Positions 44,464 to 59,162 of a stretch of 64,000 bases of DNA are shown piece after piece. Position 1 is the stretch's first letter, and every line of letters starts with the position of its first letter. The notes beneath the pieces were generated by a model. It saw nothing but the letters and a program-made list of their open reading frames with translations, had not been told where the DNA came from and ran no database searches. The stretch is from Marinibacterium sp. (GTDB taxonomy: Bacteria > Pseudomonadota > Alphaproteobacteria > Rhodobacterales > Rhodobacteraceae), in NCBI GenBank assembly GCA_025800215.1, contig JAOXSC010000022.1, positions 1 to 64,000 on the forward strand, written 5' to 3'. The translations under genes and the position numbers were made by a program.

Positions 44464-47400
44464 TCAGACTGAAAGATAGCTGTGCTCGACCAGCAGCACC
44501 ACGTCCTGATAGTCGTTGTCGCCGCCCACCACGTCTTCGAACCCGAACTGCATGGTGCCCGCATCCACCGCACCCGACAGCACATGGTGGACGCCGTCCG
44601 AATTCAGGTTAGCGGCAAAGCTGTGGAACACCTCGGCGGTCACGGCAGTCCCATTGACCAGAAGCTGCAGATCCGCGCCGTCGCCCACATTGGGCGTCAT
44701 GCCCGCGCCCTGGAATTCGAACGTGTCATCCGACACATCCCCCAGCAGCGTGGCGCCGTCCTGGATCATGAAGAAACCGATCTGCTGGCCCGCCTCGAAA
44801 TCCGTCGCGGCATGGGTATAGCTGCCGGTCTGATCGCGGGTGCTGCCAAAGGCGATGGTCACGTCGCTGATATTGCCATCGGCGTCGATCTCGTAAAAGC
44901 CCATGATGTTGTCAAAGGCCGAGCCCGACGTCGCGTTGTCCAGCGTCATCACCAGATCGGATCCGCCGGTGCTTGTCAGGAACTGCTGGGCCGCAACACC
45001 GTTGATCGCTGCGGGATCCACCGTCATGCCTTCGCCCAGGTCATGTTCGTCTTCGACAAAGATGATCTCGGTTTTGACGTCGCTGCCGCTGCCCGATTGG
45101 AACGCGAGCCCCTGCAGCCCGGCAAGGTTGCCGGTGTCAAAGCTGAAGACGACGCCGCCCACGCTGATCATGCCGGTTGCCATGTCCACATCCACGCTGG
45201 CGCCCACCGGCAGGGTGAAGACAAAGCTGTTCTGCGGCCCGACATTGACAAAGCTGGTGCCTGCAAAATCGCCCGGCGTGCCTTCGACGGCGGTCGCGTT
45301 GGTGTCGCCAAAGTCAAAGGTTTCGCCCGGGTCCACATCCGCGTTCAGCAGTTTGAGGTCATAGATCGCGGTGGTGCCGCTGACCTCATAGGCGACGGCG
45401 ATCTGGGCATGGCCCGTGGCGCTGTCTTCGGCAGGGATGAACTGGATCGTTTCGGGGCTGAGATTGCCGATGGCTTCGCCGTCGATATAGGTCACGAATT
45501 CCGGCTCGGCGGGGTTGGTGATGTCGGCGACAAAGACGCCATTGTCACGCTCAAGCCCGATGAAGGCATAGAACCGGTCGCCCACCTGACCGGCGGCGAT
45601 GGCCTCGGGCTCGACACCCTTGTCATCGGACCGGTCGTCAAAATCGCCCTCGTCCTGGTTGAACAGGTCGGGGCGGATTTCCGCGATCAGCTGCGAAAAG
45701 GCCGACCCGCTGTCGAACACCACATCGCCGGTTTCGGCGTTGAAGATGGTGAAGGACCGCCCGCCATAGTGATAGAGACGGTCATAATCCCCGTCCCCGT
45801 CGGTGTCCCCGATATCGGTGCGCACCTTGAGACGGCCCAGGTTTTCGTTGCGCTGCAGGATGTCGGCATTGGGGAACGCTTCGGGATCCAGATCCAGATC
45901 CTTGACACGGTCTTCGGTGTCGTCGCGCGCGTCGCCTTCGTTGGCGGTCAGCACATAGGTCACGCCGTCGATCTCGATCGTGGCGATCGCATCGGGCTGG
46001 CGCAGGCCATAAAGGTTGTCATAGCCCTGCAGGTTGATCGCGTTGTCGCGGTTCGACGCGTCAATCTCGAACCCGCTGCGGGACCGGTCGATTTCCCCGA
46101 ACGACCCGATATCGACAAAGCTGTCGGTGGCAAGGTCGATGACCGCCACCGCGTTGGCCTCTTGCAGGACCACGAAGGCCTGCGTGCCATCGGGCGACAC
46201 GGCGATATATTCGGGCTCAAGATCTGCCGACGCGGCCCGGCCCGGCTCGATCATCACGCCCTGCTCGCGCAGCGCGTCTTCGAACCCGTCCAGCTCTTCA
46301 AAGCCCAGGGTCTTGACCGTCGCCGCATCAACACCGGCGCCAAGGTCGATGATCGACACGCTGCCCGCCGGGTCGGTGTCGCCGACCTGTTCGCCTTCAT
46401 TGGCAACCAGGATTTTCTTGCCGTCGGGCGTAAAGGTCACCATGTCGGGCAGGTTGCCCACCTCGATGCTGCGCAGCAGGGTGCCATCGGTGTCAAAGAT
46501 CACCACAAAGCCGTTGTCTTCTTCGGGCGTCACCGACACGGCCGCCGCGATCAGACCGCCCTTGGCCGCCACCGACTGCAACCCGTCAAAGCCCGGCACG
46601 CCGGTCAGATCGAACTGCGACAGCTTCGATCCGCTGACCACGTCAAAGACATCAATGCGGCCGTTTTCGCCATTGGTCACATAAGCCACGCCATCCATGA
46701 CCGACACGACTTCGGCGGTGCCCTCTTCGGGGCTGTCGGACAGCACGTTTACCAGTTCAACGGCGATGGCGGGATCTTCGGGTTCTTCGTCGATCAGGAT
46801 GCGATCCACGTCCCCGTTCCGGTGAAGCTGCACAATCCGACGGTCGTTGAAGACATCGGTTTCGGCCTTGGCAAAGGCGTTGTCCTCGTCGGCGTGGTTG
46901 TCCTGCATGAAGGTCGCCAGCGCGTCCTGCTCTTCCAGGATATTGGCCGCCGAGGCATCGGTCGTGGTGCTGCCATCCTTGGTCACATATTCGATGTCCT
47001 GGCCCACCGCCGCGACCAGCTCCTGGAACGGATAGCCATCGCCATTGTTTTCAACCAGGAAATCAAGCGTCACCATCCGGATCGTGGCCGGCGCGTCATC
47101 GGTCAGCTGACCGTCACGCACGATGATGATGTCGGCGCCGGTGTCGGGATCGACCAGAGCCACCGTCTCGATCCGACTGCCGGGCACCTCGACCATCGGC
47201 AGCCCGGTCGAGCCGTCCACCACGTAATCGCCCGCGTCGTCGGTCACCAGCTGCTGTGCGGTGCCCTCTTCATCAAAGGAAAAGCGGAACCCGCCGATCT
47301 GCGGGAACCGGCCGGGCGTGTTGCCCGCTTCGGTGTCGGTGCCCGCAACCGCATGTTCCAGCATCATCAGGAACCCGGCCGCCGACACCGTCACCAGCGT

Positions 47401-48858
47401 CAGGTCATTGTTGAAGCGCAGCGCGTTCTGCACATCCAGCTGCGACAGCTCGCCATCGCCCTCATCGGTGCCGGTATCGCTGGCCGATCCGATCTCGGCG
47501 CGGATGCCACCGCCATTCTTGAACGACACCTGAACCGTGTCATCGACCTTGCGCGCTTCGGCCAGGTTGGCATCGGCCGTCAGGTTGCCCAGGTTGCTTT
47601 CTTCGGTGCGCACGGTGCCGCGGCGCCCGTCAAGGAACACGTCATGCGCGCCATAGATGACCGCATCGGCGGCATCGACAATCGCCTGCACCGCGCTGGT
47701 CAGGTCCGACACGATATCGGCCCGGACCGAGGTCGCCACCGCATCCGCCACGCTCTGTTCGCCGGTCACATCCATGACACCCTGCGCATCCGTCGCATAG
47801 GCGCCCGAGACGGTGTCGTCGATGGAATTGGCGATCAGCACGCCATTGTCGTCAAATTCCACGACCAGACGCCCGACATAGCTGTATTCCCCATCCGTAG
47901 ACACGATCGCCACCGGCTCGCCATCGGCATTGGTGGTCAGGAACGGATAGGTTTCATCGGCGCTGTCGCCGTCGCGCAGCCGGTCGTTGTCATCAGCCTG
48001 CAGCGTGTTGGACCCGCCCGCCAGGATCACATCGACCCCGGTCAGAAGCCCGGCCAGTTCCTTTTCCAGCTCGATCTGTTGCAGGTGGCTGGTGACGATG
48101 ATCTTGTTCACGCCGTCACCGATCAGCGCGTCGATCTGGGTCTGGATCACCGCCGCCAGCGCCGCCATGTCATTGCTGCCGCCGGTGGTTTCGTTGGTCC
48201 CGCCGGTGGACGAAATCGTTTCGATGATCTGCGTGGTGGCCCCCACGACGCCGATCTTTTCGCCGCCCCGGTCGATCACCGTGGCCGGCGCGATCGACGG
48301 GCCCACATTGCCCGCGCTCAGCGCGCCCAGGCTTTCGTTGAAGTCGGCACTGTCAAGGATCTCTGACGTGAAAAGCCCGGCCAGATTGCCGTCTCCGGAA
48401 AAGTCGATATTGGTGGTCAGATAGGGAAAGGCGCTGCCGAACCATTCGATGGTGCTGCCATCGACCTCACCGCCGATGATGTCGGCAAACGCACTGGTGC
48501 CGGGGTCGAATTCATGATTGCCCACCGCCGACGCATCAAAGCCGATGATGTTCATGATCGAAATATCGACCCGACCCGCGCCGCGCCCCAGATCGAGCTG
48601 GTCATCGGTGGGCGAAATGCCCACCACTTCGGAAAAGTAGCGCGTATAGGCCGCCGTCAGGGTGCCGCCCATGGAAAAATCGGCCGCCGTCGAAAAGAAC
48701 GGGCCGGGGATATAGTTGTCGCCGGCGGACAGGATCACGGTGTTGGCGTATTCGTCATCAAACGTGTCGATGATCGCGGCAAAATTCGGCGCGCTCTCGA
48801 GCGCTTCCACACCCCCTTCGAGGTCATTTGCGTGAAGAATCTGAAGTGTATAAGCCAT
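44464..48858 (-). CDS. Large extracellular 5'-nucleotidase/metallophosphatase with choice-of-anchor I and DUF4114 regions
   Basis: 1464 residues. About 1-340 is a calcineurin-like metallophosphatase of the UshA type (LHANDLEGG, LSAGDNYIPG, AVGNHEFDPG, VTSHLQQIELE). About 390-650 is the 5'-nucleotidase C-terminal domain (VSFKNGGGIRAEIG). About 690-1150 is a beta-propeller-like choice-of-anchor I region (VAYVTNGENGRIDVFDV, VTFTPDGKKILVANEGE). The end carries a DUF4114-like FGFEDVVGGDNDYQDVV. There is no N-terminal signal peptide, as in type I secreted proteins. The ATG at 48858 has a GGACGGTGG site upstream. A triple Pho-box-like repeat lies about 90 bases before the start. It probably releases phosphate from nucleotides outside the cell. 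Confidence 0.85.
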   Translation of the reverse strand: MAYTLQILHANDLEGGVEALESAPNFAAIIDTFDDEYANTVILSAGDNYIPGPFFSTAADFSMGGTLTAAYTRYFSEVVGISPTDDQLDLGRGAGRVDISIMNIIGFDASAVGNHEFDPGTSAFADIIGGEVDGSTIEWFGSAFPYLTTNIDFSGDGNLAGLFTSEILDSADFNESLGALSAGNVGPSIAPATVIDRGGEKIGVVGATTQIIETISSTGGTNETTGGSNDMAALAAVIQTQIDALIGDGVNKIIVTSHLQQIELEKELAGLLTGVDVILAGGSNTLQADDNDRLRDGDSADETYPFLTTNADGEPVAIVSTDGEYSYVGRLVVEFDDNGVLIANSIDDTVSGAYATDAQGVMDVTGEQSVADAVATSVRADIVSDLTSAVQAIVDAADAVIYGAHDVFLDGRRGTVRTEESNLGNLTADANLAEARKVDDTVQVSFKNGGGIRAEIGSASDTGTDEGDGELSQLDVQNALRFNNDLTLVTVSAAGFLMMLEHAVAGTDTEAGNTPGRFPQIGGFRFSFDEEGTAQQLVTDDAGDYVVDGSTGLPMVEVPGSRIETVALVDPDTGADIIIVRDGQLTDDAPATIRMVTLDFLVENNGDGYPFQELVAAVGQDIEYVTKDGSTTTDASAANILEEQDALATFMQDNHADEDNAFAKAETDVFNDRRIVQLHRNGDVDRILIDEEPEDPAIAVELVNVLSDSPEEGTAEVVSVMDGVAYVTNGENGRIDVFDVVSGSKLSQFDLTGVPGFDGLQSVAAKGGLIAAAVSVTPEEDNGFVVIFDTDGTLLRSIEVGNLPDMVTFTPDGKKILVANEGEQVGDTDPAGSVSIIDLGAGVDAATVKTLGFEELDGFEDALREQGVMIEPGRAASADLEPEYIAVSPDGTQAFVVLQEANAVAVIDLATDSFVDIGSFGEIDRSRSGFEIDASNRDNAINLQGYDNLYGLRQPDAIATIEIDGVTYVLTANEGDARDDTEDRVKDLDLDPEAFPNADILQRNENLGRLKVRTDIGDTDGDGDYDRLYHYGGRSFTIFNAETGDVVFDSGSAFSQLIAEIRPDLFNQDEGDFDDRSDDKGVEPEAIAAGQVGDRFYAFIGLERDNGVFVADITNPAEPEFVTYIDGEAIGNLSPETIQFIPAEDSATGHAQIAVAYEVSGTTAIYDLKLLNADVDPGETFDFGDTNATAVEGTPGDFAGTSFVNVGPQNSFVFTLPVGASVDVDMATGMISVGGVVFSFDTGNLAGLQGLAFQSGSGSDVKTEIIFVEDEHDLGEGMTVDPAAINGVAAQQFLTSTGGSDLVMTLDNATSGSAFDNIMGFYEIDADGNISDVTIAFGSTRDQTGSYTHAATDFEAGQQIGFFMIQDGATLLGDVSDDTFEFQGAGMTPNVGDGADLQLLVNGTAVTAEVFHSFAANLNSDGVHHVLSGAVDAGTMQFGFEDVVGGDNDYQDVVLLVEHSYLSV

Positions 48859-48946
48859 GATGCCACCGTCCTGATATTCAAAGGCCCGCAGACACCCCGA
48901 ACCGGGTGGCGGTGGCACCGCCCTAGAGCGCGTCCTTGTCGGTTCC

Positions 48947-48975
48947 GTGACAGGGTCGTGACGCAATCATGACAT
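48947..48975 (-). promoter_or_regulatory. Triple Pho-box-like direct repeat upstream of the 5'-nucleotidase
   Basis: Read on the minus strand, ATGTCAT, GCGTCAC and CTGTCAC follow each other with 4-base spacers (on the plus strand 48947-48953, 48958-48964 and 48969-48975), an exact 11-base period. The known Pho box is two or more CTGTCAT-like heptamers separated by 4 bases, bound by PhoB. The -10 downstream is weak (CTCTAG at about 48928-48923), so the transcription start is uncertain. Confidence 0.6.
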
Positions 48976-49011: not shown

Positions 49012-49284
49012 TCAGCTGTCGATCCGGGGGCTGTCGCGGCGGGGGCTGGGCGCGTCGCCATCGGCCCAGCTCACACGCAGATTGACCTGGCACTGACCGT
49101 TTTCGCGCTCGGCCTTGATGCGCACGGTCATCAGCCCGTCGGGATGCAGAACAAGCTCGTCTCCGCCGTCGCCCAGCGTGAGGCTGCCCTTGGCAAACCC
49201 TTTGCCCAGGGCCGAGATCAAAGACTTGATCGTCTTGGCATCCTGCAGCGATTCATGGCTGAAACGCGTGTTCGATCCGCCCAT
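49012..49284 (-). CDS. Amphi-Trp domain protein of the GAK system
   Basis: 90 residues. The family pattern is clear: RFSHESLQDAKTIKSLISALGKGFAKGSLTLGD split over a helix and strand, then LHPDGLMTVRIKAERE and LRVSWAD, giving the amphipathic strand and Trp for which the domain is named. The role is unknown; in this operon it could be a binding platform or a substrate of the kinase. It is the last gene, 16 bases after the phosphoesterase stop. AAGGGC precedes the ATG at 49284. Confidence 0.85.
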   Translation of the reverse strand: MGGSNTRFSHESLQDAKTIKSLISALGKGFAKGSLTLGDGGDELVLHPDGLMTVRIKAERENGQCQVNLRVSWADGDAPSPRRDSPRIDS

Positions 49285-49300
49285 GTGATGCCCTTTTCGG

Positions 49301-50614
49301 TCAGAGCGCACAGATCCGGGCGGCGGCCCGGTCTGGCGCGAAATGTTTGGCGCGCGGGTAATCCCGGCTCAGACCGATCACATCTCCGGACGGGAAAATC
49401 AAGGTCGCACCGGCCCCGATGCCATCCAGCCCTTCCAGACGGCGCGACGTGCGGTCCAGCGTCACGTCGCCTTCCAGATGCAACAGCCCGCGCTTGGCCA
49501 GAAGCCGCTGGCCGGTATGGCTGTTCACATGGCCCTGCACCACCATGTGGATGCCCGCCCGGTGCAGCAGATCGACCCCGTAGTCGGTCAGATCGCCATC
49601 GGTGTCGCGGTATTTGGTGCGCACCAGATTGGCCAGCGGCCCGAAATAAAAGCCCAGCGTCGCGGCCTGGGCGGCGGCCCGGTAGCGCGCATTGACGGTT
49701 TCGGGCCCGCCTTCGACCAGCAATTCGCACATCCGGTCGCACAGGCCCGCATGTACAAACAGCAGCGACCCGCTGCGCGCCACGACCTCCATCATGTCAA
49801 AGAACCACGCATAGGCGCCATCGGGGGCAAAAAACAGCCCATGCGCCTTGATCGCGGCGGCCAGCACCTCGCGGCTGGTCAGCCCGGCGCGCGCCAGATC
49901 GTCATCAAAGCGCGCCAGCTTGGCATCAAGCTTGGCGATCTCGTCTTCGATTACCCGTGGCGCCACATCGCCGCGCGCGGCCTGACGGAACGCATCCGCC
50001 CAAGCGGCGCCGGGCCGCAGCCGCGCCGCGCAGGTCGCGTCATCGGGCAGTGCTGCCAGATCGCGGGCGCTCACATAGCGGTCGCGCACCTCGCGCAGGG
50101 CGGGCAGGATCTTGCGGCCCATGCGCACGAAAAGATGTTCGCGCAGCACCGATCGCGGCCCCAGCAGCGCCTCAAGCGCCATGCGCAGCCGCAGATCGTG
50201 ATTGCCCGCCAGGATCTGCAGATCGGCCCCCGCAGCCCGCAAATCCCCCAGCGTGTCCAGAAGGGCCAGGTTGCTCGGCCCCTTGTCGAACGTATCGCCC
50301 CCAAGCACGATGCGCGCACCGCGCCCGAAGGGCGTCAGCGCCAGCCCCGACGCATCGCGCCGGATCACCCCGCCCGCCGACAGCGAGCGCAGGAACCCTT
50401 CGGCATCGGCATGGGGGTCCGACACAAAGACCACCGGGCGCTCGGGCCAGCGCCAGCCACCATGGCGCGCGGCCCGCGACAGGCAATCGCGGATCTGCGG
50501 ATGGTCGGCCGCGTCCGGCCAGGGTTCGACCTCACGCGGGAGATCGGCCAGAGCGGCATCAAAAACAGGCGGAAGAAGGTCGGTCGCAGCAGGCGACATC
50601 CGGGCGTGATCCAA
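49301..50614 (-). CDS. Calcineurin-like metallophosphoesterase of the GAK operon
   Basis: 437 residues. Di-metal phosphatase motifs are all present: VSDPHAD (about 64-70), GGDTFDKG (105-112), GNHDLRLR (137-144), FVHAGLCDR and QGHVNSHTGQ. The C-terminal part (DVTLDRTSRR ... GATLIFPSGD) is also typical. The TTG at 50614 has AAAGGA 8 bases upstream, while the ATG at 50599 has no good site; both starts lie before the conserved domain. It would hydrolyse a phosphoester or nucleotide-type substrate made or used by the neighbouring kinases. Confidence 0.8.
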   Translation of the reverse strand: MDHARMSPAATDLLPPVFDAALADLPREVEPWPDAADHPQIRDCLSRAARHGGWRWPERPVVFVSDPHADAEGFLRSLSAGGVIRRDASGLALTPFGRGARIVLGGDTFDKGPSNLALLDTLGDLRAAGADLQILAGNHDLRLRMALEALLGPRSVLREHLFVRMGRKILPALREVRDRYVSARDLAALPDDATCAARLRPGAAWADAFRQAARGDVAPRVIEDEIAKLDAKLARFDDDLARAGLTSREVLAAAIKAHGLFFAPDGAYAWFFDMMEVVARSGSLLFVHAGLCDRMCELLVEGGPETVNARYRAAAQAATLGFYFGPLANLVRTKYRDTDGDLTDYGVDLLHRAGIHMVVQGHVNSHTGQRLLAKRGLLHLEGDVTLDRTSRRLEGLDGIGAGATLIFPSGDVIGLSRDYPRAKHFAPDRAAARICAL

Positions 50615-50638
50615 GGGCCAAGTCCTTTGCGCGCCGGG

Positions 50639-51325
50639 TCAGTCGATCGGCGCCTCATCCCGGCCCCGCACCTTCCAGTCTCCGGCCAGGTGCGACCACC
50701 TATCATGGCCATTGTAACACAACAGTAACGGGCGTGCGTGAAACATCGACAGCGCCGCGATCCGGTCCCGTGTCAGCAGCCCCAGATGATGACAGCCATG
50801 GCGCAGCGATGCCCCATGACCCACATGCAGGCTGACCGTGCCCGGCACCGCGCGGGCAGCGGCGGCCTGCAGATGGGCGGCCACACGGGCGCCCGCCTCC
50901 ATCAGGCTTTCGGCGCCTTCCAGCGGCAACCGGTAATCGCTGTCCGATTTCCAGCCCGCCGGGGCGGGATCATGGCGCGGATCATCGCGCAGGACGGCTT
51001 CGATTTCGGGCACCGTCAGGTTGGCCGCACTGCCAAGGCCCCGTTCGGCCAGCGCCCCGGTTTCTTCGACACGCTCAAGATCGGGCAGCGCGTCGCAGAT
51101 CTCGTGCGCGGTCTGCCAGGCCCGCAGCTGATGCGATGACATCACCACCGGCGCCAGCCGCAGCCCATGCGCCGCCACCATCGCCGCCACCAGATCGGCA
51201 CAGGCCCGCGCCTGCGCGCGGCCCTCATCCGTCAGCGCAAAGGGCTGGCGCGCCGATGGCACGCCCGCGCGCTGGTGATAGGCCCCATGCCGGATCACGA
51301 TCACATGGGCGGCGGCCTCAGCCAT
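50639..51325 (-). CDS. Histidine phosphatase superfamily protein of the GAK operon
   Basis: 228 residues. The catalytic motif is IRHGAYHQ (about 11-18), with the second His in HVGHGASLRHG and an Arg/His pair in SSHQLRAWQTA. This is the phosphoglycerate-mutase-like fold that removes phosphate through a phospho-His intermediate. The ATG at 51325 overlaps the upstream kinase gene by 8 bases, so the two are co-translated. It may reverse phosphorylation by the HprK-like kinase; inference only. Confidence 0.83.
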   Translation of the reverse strand: MAEAAAHVIVIRHGAYHQRAGVPSARQPFALTDEGRAQARACADLVAAMVAAHGLRLAPVVMSSHQLRAWQTAHEICDALPDLERVEETGALAERGLGSAANLTVPEIEAVLRDDPRHDPAPAGWKSDSDYRLPLEGAESLMEAGARVAAHLQAAAARAVPGTVSLHVGHGASLRHGCHHLGLLTRDRIAALSMFHARPLLLCYNGHDRWSHLAGDWKVRGRDEAPID

Positions 51326-52421
51326 GCAAAAGCCTCTGCCCCGCCGCCGCCAGCGCGTCAAAGTCGATCCGCCCCGACACTTCGCAGACCTGCACGCCAT
51401 CCAGCGCCGTCAGGTAAGGCGCGGGATCAGGCAGCGCGCCACTGGGTTCGAACGACCCGTCCGGGCGCTGATAGAACGGTCCGGGGCTTTTCATGATCGC
51501 GCGCAGCAGATCCGGACGCGCGGCCAGATCAACCTCGGTCACCTCGGTGGGGTCGGCGCTGTCATGGGACCAGTTGAGCACCCAGAACACGTTCAGCCCG
51601 CCCGCAAAGACAAACCGCCCCGGCCCGTAGACACCCCCGATCATCAGATCGTGCTTGTCTTCCAGCGCCCACAGCTCGGCCTTGGGCAGGGCGCGCAGCT
51701 CGGCGGCGCGTGCGGGTGACAACAGGCCCGACAGGCGCGGATTGCCCAGAATGGTGCCGGGATTGATCCGCGGGTGCTTGGGAATGCCCAGCATCCGGGT
51801 CCCTGCCCCGGCATCGGGCGCCACCAGCACCCGGTCGTTGGACAGGAAATCCACCCCGTCAATATCCATCATCCGCAGGATCGACGTCGATTTGCCACCC
51901 CCCGACAGGCCCGCAATCGCCAGACCGGGCCCGCCGCGCCGGCGCACCGCCGCCGCGTGGCACAGCGACCAGCCCGCGCGCTGGCAGGCGCTCAGGATCT
52001 GGGTGTTGATGAAGTTGATCACCGTGCTGTCATGACCCTCAAGCGGGCCAAAGGCCAGCGCCACGCCCGGCGCCTGCAGAAAGGTGACACCGCTGCGCAG
52101 CTTGCGGATCAGCCGCCCGCCGCCCGCCAGATCATGCACCGCATCCTTGCGCCCGGTCTTTCCCGGCTCGCGCGCCCAGTCCTGCCAGTCGGGGTCGCGC
52201 GCCAGCGCCTGACCGGGCAGCAGATGCACGGCGATCTCGCCGGGGCTGTCGCTCAGGGCCTCGCCGAAATAGGCCATCAGGCGGCTGCGCTGCGGCTCGG
52301 GGCAATGCACCCGCACCCCCACCGGCCCCACACGCAGATCAAAGACATCCCCCGCGCGGCTCAGATCGAACCCGTCCAGAACCTCGGCCAACGTGTCAGC
52401 AAGACCGCCCGGCGCGCTCAT
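51318..52421 (-). CDS. HprK-related kinase B (GAK system)
   Basis: 367 residues. Walker A GLSGGGKST lies at 171-179, preceded by LCHAAAV and followed by DFLSNDRVLV, the layout of the HPr kinase/PEPCK-like fold in the GAK-associated 'kinase B' family. The N-terminal 140 residues resemble the accessory part of that family. Classical HPr kinases phosphorylate a protein Ser; there is no HPr here, so the target is unknown. It overlaps ATP-grasp by four bases (ATGA) and the histidine phosphatase by 8. Confidence 0.85.
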   Translation of the reverse strand: MSAPGGLADTLAEVLDGFDLSRAGDVFDLRVGPVGVRVHCPEPQRSRLMAYFGEALSDSPGEIAVHLLPGQALARDPDWQDWAREPGKTGRKDAVHDLAGGGRLIRKLRSGVTFLQAPGVALAFGPLEGHDSTVINFINTQILSACQRAGWSLCHAAAVRRRGGPGLAIAGLSGGGKSTSILRMMDIDGVDFLSNDRVLVAPDAGAGTRMLGIPKHPRINPGTILGNPRLSGLLSPARAAELRALPKAELWALEDKHDLMIGGVYGPGRFVFAGGLNVFWVLNWSHDSADPTEVTEVDLAARPDLLRAIMKSPGPFYQRPDGSFEPSGALPDPAPYLTALDGVQVCEVSGRIDFDALAAAGQRLLHG

Positions 52422-53299
52422 GCGTTCAGCTCGCGCAGTACGTGATCGGCCACCAGCGCCGCGGCATCAACGCCGCAGCCCTTCTGCGCGCCGCTATAGC
52501 CGCCAAAGGCCGAAACCTCGAACACGATGGGGCCATCGGGGGTCAGTGCGATGTCGACGGTGGTAAAGGTCAGCCCAAAGGGCGCCTGCGCGCGGCGCCC
52601 CAGCTCGATCAGCTCAAGATCCGGTTCATAGGGGGCATAGTGCCCGCCCGCCGCAATGGTGGTGTTCCAGCTGTCGCCCGCCTTGACCCGCGCATAGGTG
52701 CAGACATAGTCGCCGTTCAGAAACACCATGCCCAGATCCTGCCCCGACAGATCCACCTGTTTCTGGATATACATCATCGGGTTCTGCGCCTGGAATTCGG
52801 CGATCTGCGCGGCCGCCTCGGGCGCGCTGCCGTCAATCAGAACCATGCCGCGCGCCTTGGTGGAATAAAGCGGTTTCAGCACCGCCCGGCCATAATCGCG
52901 CACCACCTGCAGGGCCGCGCCCGCATCTTCGGTCACCGTGGTGGGCGGCATCGGCAGCCCCGCATTGGCCAGCGTCACCGTGCAGGCCAGCCGGTCGATC
53001 AGCCGCAGCACGCTGTCGGCCGGGCTGAACACCCGCACGCCCTGCGCTTCGAGCACCCGCAGCAGTTCCAGCCGGTCAAGCGCATCGGCGCTGTAGTCTT
53101 CCGCGATCTTCTTGATCACCACCGCATCCAGTTCGCGCAGATCAAGATCGTCACAGCACAGCCGGCCACTGGCCAGATCCAGCACCACCCGCCCCATGTC
53201 GATCACATAGCGCTGCCCGGTCCAGGCTTCGAACGCATCGGCCAGCGCCTCGGTCGACCACTTTCCAGGGGTCCCCACGACCCCGATTTTCCTAGTCAC
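52418..53299 (-). CDS. ATP-grasp enzyme of the GAK system
   Basis: 293 residues from a GTG at 53299. Features of an ATP-grasp ligase/kinase are LIDRLACTVTLANAGLPMP (start of the central domain), VLKPLYSTKARGMVLID (nucleotide-binding Lys and loop), MYIQKQVDLSGQDLGMVFLNG and the metal-binding IVFEVSAFGGYSGAQ with FEVSAFGG near 270. RimK-like enzymes of this kind join amino acids or phosphorylate small molecules. It overlaps the genes on either side by 8 and 4 bases. The GTG is within the last codons of the preceding gene. Confidence 0.85.
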   Translation of the reverse strand: MTRKIGVVGTPGKWSTEALADAFEAWTGQRYVIDMGRVVLDLASGRLCCDDLDLRELDAVVIKKIAEDYSADALDRLELLRVLEAQGVRVFSPADSVLRLIDRLACTVTLANAGLPMPPTTVTEDAGAALQVVRDYGRAVLKPLYSTKARGMVLIDGSAPEAAAQIAEFQAQNPMMYIQKQVDLSGQDLGMVFLNGDYVCTYARVKAGDSWNTTIAAGGHYAPYEPDLELIELGRRAQAPFGLTFTTVDIALTPDGPIVFEVSAFGGYSGAQKGCGVDAAALVADHVLRELNA

Positions 53300-54926
53300 G
53301 AAACAAAATCCCTTTTGGCAATCTAAAGCGCGCCTCGCGGCCCTCGGGCACCGACAGCGCCTGTTCAAGCAAGTATCGTGCCCGCAGCATCATCTTGCGC
53401 GCGTGGTCCTTGTCGACGACAAACCGCGTCGAACTGGCAAAGGACCGCGCCAGACCAAGCGCCAGGCGATAGTCAAACGTCGGGTCTTTCTGCTGGCGGG
53501 CAAATTTCGCCGCCATGTCCTGCATGCCCATGGCCACGGATGCGATCCGGGCCCGGGTGGTGCGATCAAGCACCTGCAGGCGATAATTGGAAACCATGAA
53601 AACGGATACGTCCTGTACGTAATCCATATAGCGCGATCGGTGCAGATCAACAAAGCGGATCTTGCGCGCGGATGCGTCATGGATCACGTTGTCGAGGTTG
53701 AAATCCCCGTGGATATAGACCGAAAACGGTGCCTCGATCTGTGCCTCGCGCGTGGCGGCGGCGGTGACCAGATCGTCAAACCCTGCAATCGCCAGCCCCT
53801 GGATGGTCTGGGCTTCGGTCGCAAAGCGCGGGTGCAGACGATAGACATCCGCCATCCGCCCCGACAGCTGCGCCATCGCGCCCATCTGGGCGGGCGTGTC
53901 GATGCGGGTCTGTTTCCAGATGTCGCGCACCGTCTTGTGCAGCGCCTTCTGCGCCTCGGCCAGGCGGGTGTCCGATCCCCCAAGCACGAGGTCTTCAAAG
54001 GTCTCGCCCTCAAGATGTTCGATCAGCAGCGCCGCAGAATCGCCATGACGCTCATAGGACAGGATCTCGGGCGCGAGACCGGGATAGACACTGTCCCAGC
54101 TTTTCACGCCCACGCGCTCTTTCTTGACCTTGCGACGGTCGCCATCCTTGAACACCGCCGACACCCGCCGCCCCTTGGCATCGCGGGTGCGCAGGCTGGA
54201 AATGGCACTGCCCGAGCGGGTTTCAGCCAGCGGGTGCAGGGTGATGTCTTCGTCATCGCCGCCAATGCTGGCCAGCACGGACCGCAGCGTGAAATAGCGT
54301 TCGAACCGCACCGGCTGGCCGATATTGATCGACAGGATCGCCTCGCTGATGGCCTGCAGCGCCTCGCCCATGCGGGCGACCTCGTTGAGGGTCAGCAGCG
54401 CATGGGCCAGATCTTCGGTGTGGCGCGTGTCGCGCATGTCGCGGGTATAGGTGTCGAACAGACGGTCATGAAACCGGCCAAGCGCCTCGCGGGTCTGGCC
54501 AATATCCACCGCGGTCTTGCTGTCGCGGCTGTGCAGCGCATCCTGCACCTGCGCCACCGACGCACGCACCGATGTCAGCGGCCCCACATAGGCGTCGGCG
54601 CGCAGCAGCTTGGGGCGCGCAACACCTTGGGCATGCAGCACCGCGCGCCGCCCCAGCCGCGACATCAGATCCAGATTGCGCGCCACCGTGTCGATGCCCT
54701 GCAGATCCATCTGCCGCGCGCCCTTGCGCCCGCCCTTGATCATCCCCGCCAGACAGGCCTTGCGCACCCGTGACGACAGGTTGCTGGCATAGCCCGCCCG
54801 CGCCACCAGCTGCTCGGCGGTGTCACTGTGCGGGCTCTTGAAATAGCCGCTGAGGCGCGACAGCTGGCCATCAAGCTCGACCAGCAGAAAGGACATGTTC
54901 TCCTCGACCGCGTCAGGGAGCATCAT
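53292..54926 (-). CDS. Two-domain protein: PhoU-like N terminus fused to an aminoglycoside-phosphotransferase-like kinase
   Basis: 544 residues. Residues about 10-215 are helical and resemble PhoU (SFLLVELDGQLSRLSGYFKS at the start; LNEVARMGEALQAISEAILSINIGQPVRFERYF at the end, the PhoU bundle pattern). Residues about 230-510 are an APH/choline-kinase fold, with VFKDGDRRKVKKE, LLIEHLEGETFEDL and the catalytic YIHGDFNLDNVIHD followed by IRFVDLHRSRYMDYVQDVS (metal Asp). The substrate is unknown. GGAGG precedes the ATG at 54926. The overlap with the Nudix gene is 14 bases and with ATP-grasp 8. Confidence 0.75.
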   Translation of the reverse strand: MMLPDAVEENMSFLLVELDGQLSRLSGYFKSPHSDTAEQLVARAGYASNLSSRVRKACLAGMIKGGRKGARQMDLQGIDTVARNLDLMSRLGRRAVLHAQGVARPKLLRADAYVGPLTSVRASVAQVQDALHSRDSKTAVDIGQTREALGRFHDRLFDTYTRDMRDTRHTEDLAHALLTLNEVARMGEALQAISEAILSINIGQPVRFERYFTLRSVLASIGGDDEDITLHPLAETRSGSAISSLRTRDAKGRRVSAVFKDGDRRKVKKERVGVKSWDSVYPGLAPEILSYERHGDSAALLIEHLEGETFEDLVLGGSDTRLAEAQKALHKTVRDIWKQTRIDTPAQMGAMAQLSGRMADVYRLHPRFATEAQTIQGLAIAGFDDLVTAAATREAQIEAPFSVYIHGDFNLDNVIHDASARKIRFVDLHRSRYMDYVQDVSVFMVSNYRLQVLDRTTRARIASVAMGMQDMAAKFARQQKDPTFDYRLALGLARSFASSTRFVVDKDHARKMMLRARYLLEQALSVPEGREARFRLPKGILFRD

Positions 54927-55368
54927 GCTCCAGCCTCCCCAGATAAACCGGCGCATCCGCCCGCAGCAGCGCCAGATCATAGCGCGGCAAAAAATCGGCC
55001 CCCTGCTCCACCGGATCGGCCCAGGTCGTGCCGATCTGGCGCTTATCGGGGGCCGTGCCCATCACCGGCTGATAGGCGGCAGGCACCGTGCAGCTGAACA
55101 GCACCTCATTGAGCTGGCGCACCCCTTTGGGCCCGACCCGGCGCACATCGGCCACATGGCACACATCCCCGATCACCGGCACCACGCCGATTTCTTCCAG
55201 ACATTCGCGCGCCAGACAGGCCTGCATCGTCTCGCCCGGTTCCTGCCGGCCACCGGGCAGCGTCAGATAGACCCGCCCGCTGCGCGCCTGTTTGACCTGC
55301 ACCAGCACCAGCCGATCCTTGCGGATGACAGCGCGCATGGCGGGCTTTATGCTCCGTTCTGACAACAT
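54913..55368 (-). CDS. Nudix hydrolase, first gene of the GAK operon
   Basis: 151 residues. The Nudix box GRQEPGE-x7-RECLEEIGV is complete at about 40-62 (Glu residues of RExxEE present). Nudix enzymes cleave nucleoside diphosphates linked to another group. In this operon it may hydrolyse a nucleotide or inositol/diphosphate-type compound related to the kinases. Start at 55368 has AGGGA upstream but gives a leader of only about 8 bases from the predicted promoter; ATG at 55338 is an alternative. Confidence 0.85.
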   Translation of the reverse strand: MLSERSIKPAMRAVIRKDRLVLVQVKQARSGRVYLTLPGGRQEPGETMQACLARECLEEIGVVPVIGDVCHVADVRRVGPKGVRQLNEVLFSCTVPAAYQPVMGTAPDKRQIGTTWADPVEQGADFLPRYDLALLRADAPVYLGRLEHDAP

Positions 55369-55382
55369 CGGTCCCTGTGCCA

Positions 55383-55415
55383 ATTATGCACCCCGTGATG
55401 ACCACAGTTTGACAG
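55383..55415 (-). promoter_or_regulatory. Pho-box-type promoter of the GAK operon
   Basis: On the minus strand CTGTCAA (55415-55409), 4 bases, TGGTCAT (55404-55398), then 9 bases and CATAAT (55388-55383). This matches two CTGTCAT-type heptamers in an 18-bp Pho box followed at the usual distance by a -10. The predicted start is about 8 bases before the first ATG. PhoB control is inferred from this spacing. Confidence 0.6.
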
Positions 55416-55604: not shown

Positions 55605-56795
55605 ATGACCAAGACCGAAACGCATGAAGACCTCAATGCGGTGATCCGTCAACATTCCGAATGGATGGCGGGCCAACTGCATTCGCAGCGCGAAAGCCTG
55701 TTCCCGCCCGATGCGACCAAATCCATGCGCAAATTCACCTCGGGCGAGGCCGCGGCCCTGCTCGGGGTCAACGATTCCTACCTGCGCAAGCTGCATCTTG
55801 ACGGCAAGGGGCCGTCGCCCGAACTGACACCTGGAAACCGGCGGCTCTATTCGTCTCAGGACATTCAGGATCTGCGGGTTCTGCTGGAAAAAACCGCAAG
55901 GAAACCAGGCGATTACATCCCCGGACGGCGGGACGGAGACCACCTGCAGATCATCGGCGTGATGAACTTCAAAGGCGGCTCGGGCAAGACCACGACATCG
56001 GCCCATCTGGCCCAAAGGCTGGCGCTGCGCGGCTATCGCGTGCTGGCCATCGACCTTGACCCGCAGGCATCGCTGACCGCGCTGCACGGGGTGCAGCCGG
56101 AATTCGATCTTGAAGATGGCGGCACGCTTTACGATGCCATCCGCTTTGACGATCCCGCGCCGATCACATCGGTGATCAGGCCCACCTATATCCCGAATCT
56201 GGATCTGATTCCCGGAAACCTCGAACTGATGGAGTTCGAGCACGACACGCCCCGCGCCCTGTCCAATGGCCATGCGGGGCTGTTCTTTTTCCGCGTGCGC
56301 GAGGCGCTCAGCCAGGTTGATGATGACTATGATGTGGTGGTGATCGACTGCCCGCCACAGCTTGGCTTCCTGACCATGTCGGCCCTGTCGGCAGCGACTG
56401 GTGTTCTGGTGACCATTCACCCTGAAATGCTCGATGTGATGTCGATGTCGCAATTCCTGCGCATGACCGCCGATCTGATGGATGTGATCGCCGAAAGCGG
56501 CGCGGACATGTCGCATGACTGGATGCGCTATGTGCTGACCCGCTATGAACCCGCCGACGCGCCGCAGAACCGGATCGTGGCCTTTCTGCGGCACATGTAT
56601 GGCGACAGCGTGCTGAACGCACCGATGCTGAAATCAACGGCGATTTCCGATGCGGGCTTGACCAAACAGACCCTCTACGAGGTCGAACGCAGCGCCTTTA
56701 CCCGCTCCACCTATGACCGGGCCATCGAAAGCCTGAATGCGGTCAATGACGAAATCGCCGCCCTGATCCAGCAGACCTGGGGGCGCGACACATGA
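55605..56795 (+). CDS. repA: Plasmid partitioning ATPase RepA (ParA type)
   Basis: 396 residues. The N-terminal part has a MerR-like helix-turn-helix (MRKFTSGEAAALLGVNDSYLRKLH, about 41-64). The deviant Walker A of ParA is FKGGSGKTT (about 122-130), followed by LAIDLDPQASLTALHG and VVIDCPPQLGFLTM. It moves plasmid copies apart and represses the operon. It is followed by repB with an ATGA overlap. Confidence 0.95.
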   Translation: MTKTETHEDLNAVIRQHSEWMAGQLHSQRESLFPPDATKSMRKFTSGEAAALLGVNDSYLRKLHLDGKGPSPELTPGNRRLYSSQDIQDLRVLLEKTARKPGDYIPGRRDGDHLQIIGVMNFKGGSGKTTTSAHLAQRLALRGYRVLAIDLDPQASLTALHGVQPEFDLEDGGTLYDAIRFDDPAPITSVIRPTYIPNLDLIPGNLELMEFEHDTPRALSNGHAGLFFFRVREALSQVDDDYDVVVIDCPPQLGFLTMSALSAATGVLVTIHPEMLDVMSMSQFLRMTADLMDVIAESGADMSHDWMRYVLTRYEPADAPQNRIVAFLRHMYGDSVLNAPMLKSTAISDAGLTKQTLYEVERSAFTRSTYDRAIESLNAVNDEIAALIQQTWGRDT

Positions 56796-57817
56796 CCAGC
56801 AAAAAGAAAAGCCGGATGTCCCTTCTGGACAATCTTGCCGCGGCCAAGGCCCCTGCCCCGACCACGGCGGCGTCGATGATGGCATCGAACCGCGCCCTGC
56901 GCTCGGCCCGCGACGCGGTGGACAGCCACCATGTCTGGGAGCTTGACCCGACAAGCATCATCGACGACCGGCTCAATGACCGGCTTGATCCCGAAGACGT
57001 GCTGGATCTGCGCGACGCCATCGAAACCAATGGCCAGACCGTGCCCATTCTGGTGCGCCGCCATCCCAGCGAAGCCGACCGGTATCTGCTGGTCTATGGG
57101 CGGCGGCGGCTGGAAGCGATCCGGCAGTCCGACAAGGTCGACAAGGTCCGCGCGCTGGTCGCCAATCTGGATGATCAGGCCGCCGTGCGCGCCCAGATCT
57201 CGGAAAACATGGCGCGGCGCGATCTGTCCTATATCGAAAAAGCCCTTTTCGCTCAGGAACTTATCTCGTCTGGCTTTGGCAACCAATCCCAGGTGGCCGA
57301 AGTTCTGACCGTGACCAAATCTTCCATCTCCATGGCCAAGACGGTGGTGGAAATGGTGGGCACCGACATCATCCACGCGGTGGGCCCGGCCCATGGCGTG
57401 GGTCGCCCGCGTTGGGAAGCGCTTGGCAAAGGCATCGAAGAAAGCGGCGCAGACCGCCACAGCCTCGCCGAGATTGCCGAGCATGTTTACCACCGAGACG
57501 AGATGTCGGTGGTGACCGAAGATCTGGCCCAGGATCCCGCCGATCTTTCGGTCTTGGCCTTTGAAGCCGTGGAAAAGGCCGTTCAGAGCCTGCGGCCCGC
57601 ACGTCCCACGACCCCGCCCTCCCCCGCCGCGCGCGGGGTGCCGACCCACAGCCGGGTTCTTCGGCTGGGCGGTCAGCGCGGCGGGTCGGTGAAACGGACA
57701 AAAACAGGAATAACGATCAGCCTCGATCAGGGCGCTTTTGCGGACTGGGTCGAAGGCGAAGCCGAGCAGCTGATCGAAGACCTTCACGCGCAATGGATAA
57801 AACGCGCGGAAGACTGA
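56792..57817 (+). CDS. repB: Plasmid partitioning protein RepB (ParB type)
   Basis: 341 residues. ParB N-terminal nuclease-like domain about 50-145 (LDPTSIIDDRLNDRLDPEDV, YLLVYGRRRLEAIR, ISENMARRDLSYIEKA) and a helix-turn-helix about 160-190 (GFGNQSQVAEVLTVTKSSISMAKTVVE). It binds the parS palindromes downstream of repC and links them to RepA. Coupled to repA by a four-base overlap. Confidence 0.95.
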   Translation: MTSKKKSRMSLLDNLAAAKAPAPTTAASMMASNRALRSARDAVDSHHVWELDPTSIIDDRLNDRLDPEDVLDLRDAIETNGQTVPILVRRHPSEADRYLLVYGRRRLEAIRQSDKVDKVRALVANLDDQAAVRAQISENMARRDLSYIEKALFAQELISSGFGNQSQVAEVLTVTKSSISMAKTVVEMVGTDIIHAVGPAHGVGRPRWEALGKGIEESGADRHSLAEIAEHVYHRDEMSVVTEDLAQDPADLSVLAFEAVEKAVQSLRPARPTTPPSPAARGVPTHSRVLRLGGQRGGSVKRTKTGITISLDQGAFADWVEGEAEQLIEDLHAQWIKRAED

Positions 57818-57859
57818 GGTAGAGCAGAAACCAAAACAGGAGGCACGAGCCAGCCAAAG

Positions 57860-57910
57860 AAAAAGGCCCCGCAAAGACAACGCTCCACGAGACCTAACTT
57901 GTTTCTAGCA
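57860..57910 (-). ncRNA. Counter-transcribed RNA between repB and repC (incA-type)
   Basis: The minus strand carries GGTCTCG (57894-57888), a 16-base loop, CGGGGCC (57871-57865) and then TTTTT. In RNA the stem pairs fully only on this strand because two positions are G-U pairs. A TTGCAG (57945-57940), 17 bases, TACCTT (57922-57917) promoter would give a roughly 50-base RNA, the size of repABC incompatibility RNAs, which block repC translation. The 175-base gap between repB and repC is the standard place for it. Confidence 0.65.
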
Positions 57911-57992
57911 CCTTCAAGGTAGAGGCGAGAGCGTGTAACTGCAAGTCCTATTCGATTTGCAGAACGGGATTTCTTTGTCTTCGTGATAGAAA

Positions 57993-59162
57993 ATGTCCTA
58001 CATGCCCGTAACGTCGTTCCGGCGACCGGTCAGTGCTGCCCAATTGCAACACGTCCCCGCGCCTGATCGCGCGCCCCTGCCCCGTGACGAGGTCAACAAA
58101 TGGGACGCGCTGCGCGAACTGACCGTCGCCCGCCGCCATTTTGATCTGAGCGACCGTGACCTTGCCGTCCTGCAGGCGCTGATCAGCTTTCACCCCAAAC
58201 CTGTTCTGTCGACAGATGGTAAAGATCTGGTTGTGCATCCGTCCAACCGCTCGATCTGCGAGCGTCTGAACGGCATGCCCTGTTCGACCATGCGCCGCCA
58301 TCTGGCGACCCTGGTGCGCGCAGGCGTGATCACCCGCCGCGACAGCCCCAACGGCAAACGCTATGCCAGACGCTACGGCGACGACAAGATCGCCTATGGG
58401 TTCGACCTGTCGCCTCTGGTTCACCGCTTCCCCGAGATCTGCGCACTGGCCGAAGACGCCCGCGCGGAAACCCAGGCGATGGAGCGGCTGCGCGAAACCA
58501 TCCGCCTGATGCGCCGCGACCTTGCGGGCCTTGCCGAGTTCGGTGCCGAGCAACAACCGCAGCTTGAGATCTGGGCCGCGTTCTCGGACCTCGCGACCCT
58601 GACCGCACGCGCGCTGCGCCGGAAGCTGACCCTGACTGAATTGCAAGCCCTCGAAACCCGGCTGGCAGATGCGTTGACCGATCTGCGCGTCCATCTGGAG
58701 GTCGCGGAATCAGAAGAAATGAGCACCAAGGGCGTGCAGAATGAGCAGCACTATAAGAACACTAAATTAGACTCTTATGAATCTGAACGTCCCGCACAGA
58801 TGACACCGAACTCCGAAGTAACGCGATTGAAAGGACGAAAACCCACAGTTCCCATCGGCCTTGTTCTTGCCACATGCAGTGAATTCCGGACCTACTGCGA
58901 TTATCGTATTCTACATTGGAACGACCTTGTTCGCGCAGCGGACATCATTCGACCAATGATGGGGATCTGTGTGTCAGCGTGGGATGAGGCCAAGGAAATG
59001 ATGGGGCCCGAGAATGCCGCGATTGCGCTGGTCGCCATGTTGGAGCGGTTCGAAAGTATCAAATCACCGGGCGGGTATTTGCGGACGCTCAGTCGAAAAG
59101 CGGCGGATGGGACGTTCTCGTGCGGGCCGATGATCATGGCGTTGGCACGGAAGGATGGGTGA
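57993..59162 (+). CDS. repC: Replication initiator RepC
   Basis: 389 residues. Family blocks are KWDALRELTVARRHFDLSDRDLAVLQALISFHPKP, SNRSICERLNGMPCSTMRRHLATLVRAGVITRRDSPNGKRYARR (winged helix, about 75-125) and the C-terminal IIRPMMGICVSAWDEAKEMMG, SPGGYLRTLSRKA. The replication origin of repABC plasmids lies inside repC; an AT-rich stretch at about 58735-58800 (CACTAAATTAGACTCTTATG) is the likely site. The start is 57993 or the ATG at 58002. Confidence 0.95.
   Translation: MSYMPVTSFRRPVSAAQLQHVPAPDRAPLPRDEVNKWDALRELTVARRHFDLSDRDLAVLQALISFHPKPVLSTDGKDLVVHPSNRSICERLNGMPCSTMRRHLATLVRAGVITRRDSPNGKRYARRYGDDKIAYGFDLSPLVHRFPEICALAEDARAETQAMERLRETIRLMRRDLAGLAEFGAEQQPQLEIWAAFSDLATLTARALRRKLTLTELQALETRLADALTDLRVHLEVAESEEMSTKGVQNEQHYKNTKLDSYESERPAQMTPNSEVTRLKGRKPTVPIGLVLATCSEFRTYCDYRILHWNDLVRAADIIRPMMGICVSAWDEAKEMMGPENAAIALVAMLERFESIKSPGGYLRTLSRKAADGTFSCGPMIMALARKDG

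Follow-up and report, generated by a model that had tools for sequence, protein, structure and literature searches.

The window analysed here is a 64,000-nucleotide stretch of DNA from Marinibacterium sp. (Rhodobacteraceae; contig JAOXSC010000022.1, positions 1 to 64,000), part of a 3.6-Mb genome bin of 228 contigs that is 83% complete. Between positions 49012 and 55368 it carries seven genes on the minus strand that belong to GAK, a curated gene system to which, to our knowledge, no function has been assigned. As defined by NCBIfam TIGR04354-TIGR04358, GAK comprises an amphi-Trp protein, an HprK-related kinase B (HprK-B), the GAK ATP-grasp enzyme, a GAK CofD-like protein and an XXXCH protein. 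The genes of the operon, with refined starts, are the following, from first to last:

54913 to 55368, minus strand: Nudix hydrolase (PF00293), first gene
53292 to 54926, minus strand: fusion of a PhoU domain (residues 1-204) and a small-molecule kinase resembling APH and methylthioribose kinase (residues 208-544)
52418 to 53299, minus strand: GAK ATP-grasp enzyme (TIGR04356), RimK/LysX/MptN-like, with a GTG start
51318 to 52421, minus strand: HprK-B (TIGR04355), with a PEPCK/HPr-kinase fold
50639 to 51325, minus strand: histidine phosphatase, branch 1 (PF00300)
49301 to 50599, minus strand: calcineurin-like metallophosphoesterase (PF00149, motifs and orthologues)
49012 to 49284, minus strand: amphi-Trp domain protein (TIGR04354, PF20068), last gene

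An initial annotation, made from the sequence, had placed all seven genes here, in these families; each was found, with NCBIfam or Pfam matches of which those to PhoU and Metallophos lie just under cut-off. The genes are, as it had described, overlapping or closely spaced: overlaps of 14 bp (Nudix/PhoU-kinase), 8 bp (PhoU-kinase/ATP-grasp), 4 bp (ATP-grasp/HprK-B) and 8 bp (HprK-B/histidine phosphatase) are followed by gaps of 39 bp between the histidine phosphatase and the metallophosphoesterase and of 16 bp between the latter and amphi-Trp. The initial annotation had taken the overlaps to mean fixed stoichiometry, which is conceivable. The check by hidden Markov models that it had proposed put all three name-giving families above their NCBIfam cut-offs (ATP-grasp, grasp_GAK TIGR04356, 422.6 bits versus 300; HprK-B, HprK_rel_B TIGR04355, 287.4 bits versus 200; amphi-Trp, TIGR04354, 61.9 bits versus 31), and by these three families the operon is a member of GAK. 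Pfam cut-offs are exceeded by the histidine phosphatase (His_Phos_1 PF00300, 68.3 bits versus 21.7, RHG and GHG motifs readable), the Nudix hydrolase (NUDIX PF00293, 44.9 bits versus 21.1, with a perfect Nudix box, GRQEPGETMQACLARECLEEIGV) and the APH part of the fusion (38.6 bits versus 23.2). The metallophosphoesterase stays under its threshold (PF00149, 18.9 versus a cut-off of 21.5, E=0.0023), with the motifs D-x-H (DPH), GDxxDxG (GDTFDKG), GNHD and GH all readable. The reported absence of CofD-like and XXXCH members holds for CofD-like (TIGR04357), of which the window contains none and the 83%-complete genome bin no match at E<=0.001, and, among the seven genes of the operon, for XXXCH (TIGR04358), a model with which window and bin were not searched.

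The PhoU-like kinase fusion that had been proposed is real, since both halves of its AlphaFold model (pLDDT 88.8) match known folds. In a fold search with this model, residues 1-204 matched Pseudomonas aeruginosa PhoU (Z 23.9, 204 of 211 residues, 2.1 Å) and so cover the whole length of this phosphate signalling complex protein, while residues 208-544 matched methylthioribose kinase (Z 20.6) as well as APH(4), maltokinase and fructosamine-3-kinase. The protein differs from PhoU in being fused to a kinase and in its sequence, which falls below the Pfam threshold (19.1 versus a cut-off of 23.5, E=0.0018). HGD-N--N and D427 of the kinase half are invariant in our alignment A2, and tblastn with PhoU gives hits in most delta homologues. 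PhoU-kinase is a member of nearly every GAK locus, those of sulfate reducers among them, and is therefore not special to the window.

The other two core enzymes were also compared with solved structures, HprK-B by fold and ATP-grasp by sequence. HprK-B (model pLDDT 93.4) has no solved relative by sequence search and a clear one by fold: it aligns over its whole length with ATP-dependent PEPCK (Z 16.2 over 297 residues), and its core aligns with HPr kinase (HPrK/P; Z about 14 over 134 residues). Its Walker A motif reads GLSGGGKST, of which G-SG-GKST is invariant in the alignment. For the GAK ATP-grasp enzyme, a sequence search gave mainly RimK/LysX-type and related ligases as nearest solved structures, with MptN also close, and a weak match to ribosomal-peptide maturases. 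An alignment of 21 sequences has many invariant columns, and the C-terminal motif is E-V-S in GAK versus E-V-N in the RimK/LysX relatives; this replacement suggests that the chemistry may differ from that of RimK and LysX.

These affinities raise the question of whether GAK modifies a protein or peptide, the RimK-like ATP-grasp enzyme ligating a residue, the HprK-like kinase phosphorylating a small partner (amphi-Trp, or XXXCH in sulfate reducers) and the phosphatases reversing the modification. The kinship of the ATP-grasp enzyme with RimK, LysX and MptN ligases and its weak resemblance to peptide maturases would fit, as would the match between the HprK-B core and HPrK/P, itself a protein kinase, and the presence of small conserved proteins in the cluster. 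Against this, HprK-B at full length is closer to PEPCK than to HPr kinase, the kinase joined to PhoU looks like one that acts on small molecules, and three phosphohydrolases of small-molecule families together with polyphosphate-type neighbours would be unusual for a peptide system. We consider this explanation unlikely. A cluster for a ribosomally synthesized and post-translationally modified peptide was retained only as part of it, because amphi-Trp is the sole conserved precursor-like small gene in the alpha/gammaproteobacterial operons.

Gene content and order were compared across 29 alpha/gammaproteobacterial GAK loci. PhoU-kinase, ATP-grasp and HprK-B are each present in all 29, amphi-Trp in 28, the metallophosphoesterase in 27, the histidine phosphatase in 26, an adjacent CofD in 14 and Nudix in 8. 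The order PhoU-kinase, ATP-grasp, HprK-B, histidine phosphatase, metallophosphoesterase, amphi-Trp is retained in most loci and across genera, far beyond chance. The survey of gene order suggested in the initial annotation thus finds six of the seven genes conserved in most loci, and Nudix is optional. CofD is not a strict requirement, since fewer than half of the loci have it adjacent, and searches with sulfate-reducer XXXCH proteins found no XXXCH in the 29 loci. To call the window a distinct layout was an overstatement, because the standard alpha/gammaproteobacterial form of GAK already has this core and the two phosphatases, and the window is a CofD-lacking example of it; among the 29 loci, the exact Nudix-first, CofD-less order was seen in the window only. 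Compared with GAK as defined by NCBIfam, a histidine phosphatase, a calcineurin-like phosphoesterase and a Nudix enzyme stand in place of the CofD-like and XXXCH members, and amphi-Trp comes last rather than ahead of PhoU-kinase. A gene fusing a histidine phosphatase to a Nudix domain joins seven GAK loci (L070, L071 and L084-L088) and may substitute for the separate Nudix gene in some clusters.

The sulfate-reducer clusters (59 loci) share with the window the order PhoU-kinase, ATP-grasp, HprK-B, within a usual order of XXXCH, an unnamed 408-residue protein, amphi-Trp, PhoU-kinase, ATP-grasp, HprK-B and CofD. The 408-residue protein (L008:4710-5933 and relatives) is found in 51 of these loci, has no Pfam or NCBIfam match and appears to be an unnamed component of the sulfate-reducer cluster. 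The histidine phosphatase and the metallophosphoesterase are absent from all 59.

The GAK ATP-grasp enzyme scores above cut-off in 12 of 395 genomes of the window's family (one genome per genus), in 13 of 398 genomes of a wider phylum sample and in 97 of 199 Desulfovibrionaceae. It also occurs on five PLSDB plasmids, all from Rhodobacterales. The plasmid operons of Tritonibacter (T. mobilis F1926, L026), Pseudooceanicola and Qingshengfaniella (L025-L027) share six genes, their order and their plasmid location with the window; they differ in that two of the three have a divergent CofD and only that of Qingshengfaniella has Nudix. In the window, repABC plasmid genes lie at 55605-59162 on the plus strand (RepA, RepB and RepC all above family cut-off), starting about 240 bp from the first gene of the operon, which points away from them. 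Because repABC adjoins the operon, this copy of GAK is plasmid- or chromid-borne. One further locus, on a contig titled Enemella evansiae (L003), is apparently identical in gene coordinates and identities to L079, from a genome in the window's family; its actinobacterial label is therefore probably due to contamination or mislabelling.

To look for control sites, upstream regions were scored by their best site, out of 14, against the published PhoB consensus of two CTGTCAT repeats 4 bp apart (PMC3333781, which describes the PhoB boxes of Escherichia coli and Desulfovibrio vulgaris). A score of 11 or more was counted as strong, and all enrichment tests given here ignore kinship between species. 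Upstream of the 29 alpha/gammaproteobacterial operons the mean best score was 9.66, a value reached by none of 400 permuted motifs (mean 8.51, sd 0.24), and a spacing of 4 was the best of 12 spacings tried. Strong sites precede 8 of the 29 operons (27.6%) versus 5 of 156 other promoters of the same loci (3.2%; Fisher P=1e-4), and the scores of the two sets differ as well (Mann-Whitney P=6e-6). Pseudooceanicola algae is one of the GAK carriers in which the box is clear. Three control promoters score at least 12: one belongs to a CHAD gene leading into GAK (L086, 13/14) and a second to the gene divergent from the GAK operon in L005. The CHAD promoters of L003, L006 and L088 have no strong Pho box.

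Around the operon in the window, three further features bear on phosphate control, and the initial annotation had mentioned neither Pho boxes nor the downstream gene:

55398 to 55415, minus strand: Pho-box-like site CTGTCAAACTGTGGTCAT, 11/14, before the Nudix start
48936 to 48975, minus strand: four half-sites at 11-bp spacing, ATGTCAT-GATT-GCGTCAC-GACC-CTGTCAC-GGAA-CCGACAA, upstream of the 5'-nucleotidase gene
44464 to 48858, minus strand: 5'-nucleotidase-like enzyme with a choice-of-anchor I domain, next gene downstream of amphi-Trp

The sequence CATAAT (55383-55388) lies 9 nt after CTGTCAAACTGTGGTCAT and 14 nt ahead of the Nudix ATG. Taken alone, the site at 55398-55415 is only suggestive of a Pho box. 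The half-sites at 48936-48975 form the best-scoring triple repeat of the window on both strands, with a score that 2000 shuffled versions of the 203-bp region did not reach. The gene behind them (NF038117, 470.7 bits versus a cut-off of 300; nucleotidase matches below cut-off) is probably a Pho-regulon neighbour outside GAK, and its product is probably a secreted phosphate-scavenging enzyme.

In the sulfate-reducer GAK clusters, the signal is a YGTNAC repeat like that of D. vulgaris with an 11-bp period, and none of 179 decoys scored as high. It consists of a 6-bp unit and a 5-bp spacer, the period being that of E. coli; the D. vulgaris PhoB repeat has a 4-bp spacer (PMC3333781). The E. coli-type box is not enriched there, CTGTCAT with a gap of 4 being equalled by 31 of 60 decoys. 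Genome G789 encodes a rubredoxin identical over 52 residues to PDB 1rdg, 1e8j and 2dsx, the rubredoxin of D. gigas, and was recognised by it as Desulfovibrio gigas. No clear box was seen upstream of its XXXCH gene, and its GAK cluster may be transcribed by read-through from phoU, the end of which lies about 140 bp upstream.

Several GAK clusters also lie beside phosphate genes. Five sulfate-reducer loci have pst/phoU genes directly upstream of GAK: pst genes and phoU in L009, pstA-pstB-phoU in L008, and pstB and phoU together with phoB in L128, L136 and D. gigas, whereas 18 control stretches from the same genomes contain no pst, phoU or phoB genes. D. gigas PstB is above cut-off (TIGR00972, 416 bits versus 343); its PhoB has the PhoB model as best match, yet scores below the cut-off of that model (254.7 versus 296). 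A Na/Pi cotransporter adjoins L084, and a CYTH protein is found in L006. This phosphate-regulon link of GAK, through control sites, pst/phoU neighbours and CHAD neighbours, is new here, and from these sequence data we regard it as highly probable that the GAK operon belongs to the Pho regulon.

Such a setting might indicate that GAK is simply a relay of phosphate status, in which PhoU-kinase senses the state of Pst/PhoR, HprK-B hands phosphate on and so adjusts PhoB or transport, and the hydrolases return the system to its starting point, no stored metabolite being made. The PhoU fusion, the adjacency to pst-phoU-phoB and the Pho boxes would all agree with this. A set of seven or eight enzymes, with Nudix and ATP-grasp among them, nevertheless exceeds the needs of a relay, and ordinary Pho signalling does not require GAK, since most species of the window's family lack it (only the 12 genomes above carry it). 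A relay of this kind therefore seems improbable to us.

CHAD proteins, which bind polyphosphate (PMC6537752), adjoin GAK in L003, L006, L086 and L088, with a ParA-like ATPase beside the CHAD protein in the last three, and this pair could position phosphate granules. If GAK acted directly on granules of inorganic polyphosphate, assisting polyphosphate kinase (PPK), with CHAD and ParA-like proteins setting the position of the granule, these four and three loci would fit, and the window genome has PPK1 and three PPK2 matches. In contrast, neither PPK1 nor PPK2 was detected in D. gigas and two other sulfate reducers with GAK beside pst (G806 and G825), where GAK is thus independent of polyphosphate, and the folds of PhoU-kinase, HprK-B and ATP-grasp differ from those of polyphosphate kinases. 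Of the alternatives weighed here, we find this one the hardest to credit.

We give about even odds to the reading that GAK is a module under Pho control that attaches phosphate to a small organic compound and removes it again. PhoB would turn the operon on under phosphate stress, and PhoU-kinase, the PEPCK/HPr-kinase-like HprK-B and the ATP-grasp enzyme would charge a small organic carrier with phosphate, while the PhoU domain would tie the kinase to the supply of phosphate. Judging from the likeness of the kinase half to methylthioribose, maltose and fructosamine kinases, the carrier is probably a sugar-like compound; alternatively, the ATP-grasp step could proceed by way of an acyl phosphate and attach a residue. 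Removal of the phosphates would fall to the histidine phosphatase, the calcineurin-like phosphoesterase and the Nudix enzyme, and the outcome would be either a store of phosphate or a signal of phosphate status. The initial annotation had proposed a closed cycle in which a phosphorylated metabolite or protein is made and broken down; this idea fits the enzyme set and gains support from the Pho-regulon placement. Its interpretation as a whole is partly supported.

Several points weigh against this proposal. We know of no GAK substrate, and the proximity of the ATP-grasp enzyme to the amino-acid ligases RimK, LysX and MptN suggests peptide-bond-type ligation and not a kinase. Strong Pho boxes precede only 8 of the 29 operons, and several have none. 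In related sulfate-reducing species many of the 11-bp repeats sit near the projected start codon, and inheritance thereby inflates the repeat test; pst adjacency is limited to 3 of the 41 Desulfovibrionaceae loci examined. Finally, since the sulfate-reducer layout lacks both phosphatases, making and breaking within one operon is not universal.

A phosphorylation module of this type would work in a manner akin to eukaryotic inositol-pyrophosphate turnover by kinase, histidine phosphatase and Nudix enzyme, without homology of the whole pathway. There, the PPIP5K/Asp1 kinase-phosphatase and the Nudix enzyme Aps1 act in connection with the phosphate regulon (PMC11836120, PMC11323792). The ATP-grasp, histidine phosphatase and Nudix folds and the phosphate-regulon setting are common to both; the differences are that the window ATP-grasp is RimK/LysX-like by sequence, the basis on which a PPIP5K/ITPK type was looked for, that PhoU-kinase and HprK-B have no counterpart in the eukaryotic pathway, and that no inositol phosphate is known in GAK.

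D. gigas stores phosphorus as alpha-glucose 1,2,3,4,6-pentakis(diphosphate) in electron-dense granules, the chemistry of which was reportedly described by Hensgens et al. in 1996. We know of no genes assigned to the synthesis of this compound since its description in the 1990s. The D. gigas genome was predicted beforehand to contain GAK, and it does, with the sulfate-reducer gene set (ATP-grasp 440 bits). Since about half of the family has GAK, this presence alone is weak evidence; it is strengthened by the position beside pst and by the lack of both PPK1 and PPK2. It is conceivable, if a long shot, that GAK is a PPK-independent make-and-break pathway for a heavily pyrophosphorylated sugar serving as phosphate reserve, in D. 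gigas alpha-glucose 1,2,3,4,6-pentakis(diphosphate). Such a sugar could be regarded, by analogy, as a bacterial counterpart of the inositol pyrophosphates.

About half of the Desulfovibrionaceae sampled carry GAK, which is also scattered on Rhodobacteraceae plasmids. Given its apparent phosphate-starvation control sites and its fused phosphate sensor and kinase, it is probably a phosphate-managing pathway. The Pho-regulon placement and the true PhoU-kinase fusion turn a system without a role into a testable assignment: which compound, if any, is phosphorylated when phosphate changes? Should the D. gigas reading be true, genes would be assigned to a chemically unusual phosphate-storage granule.

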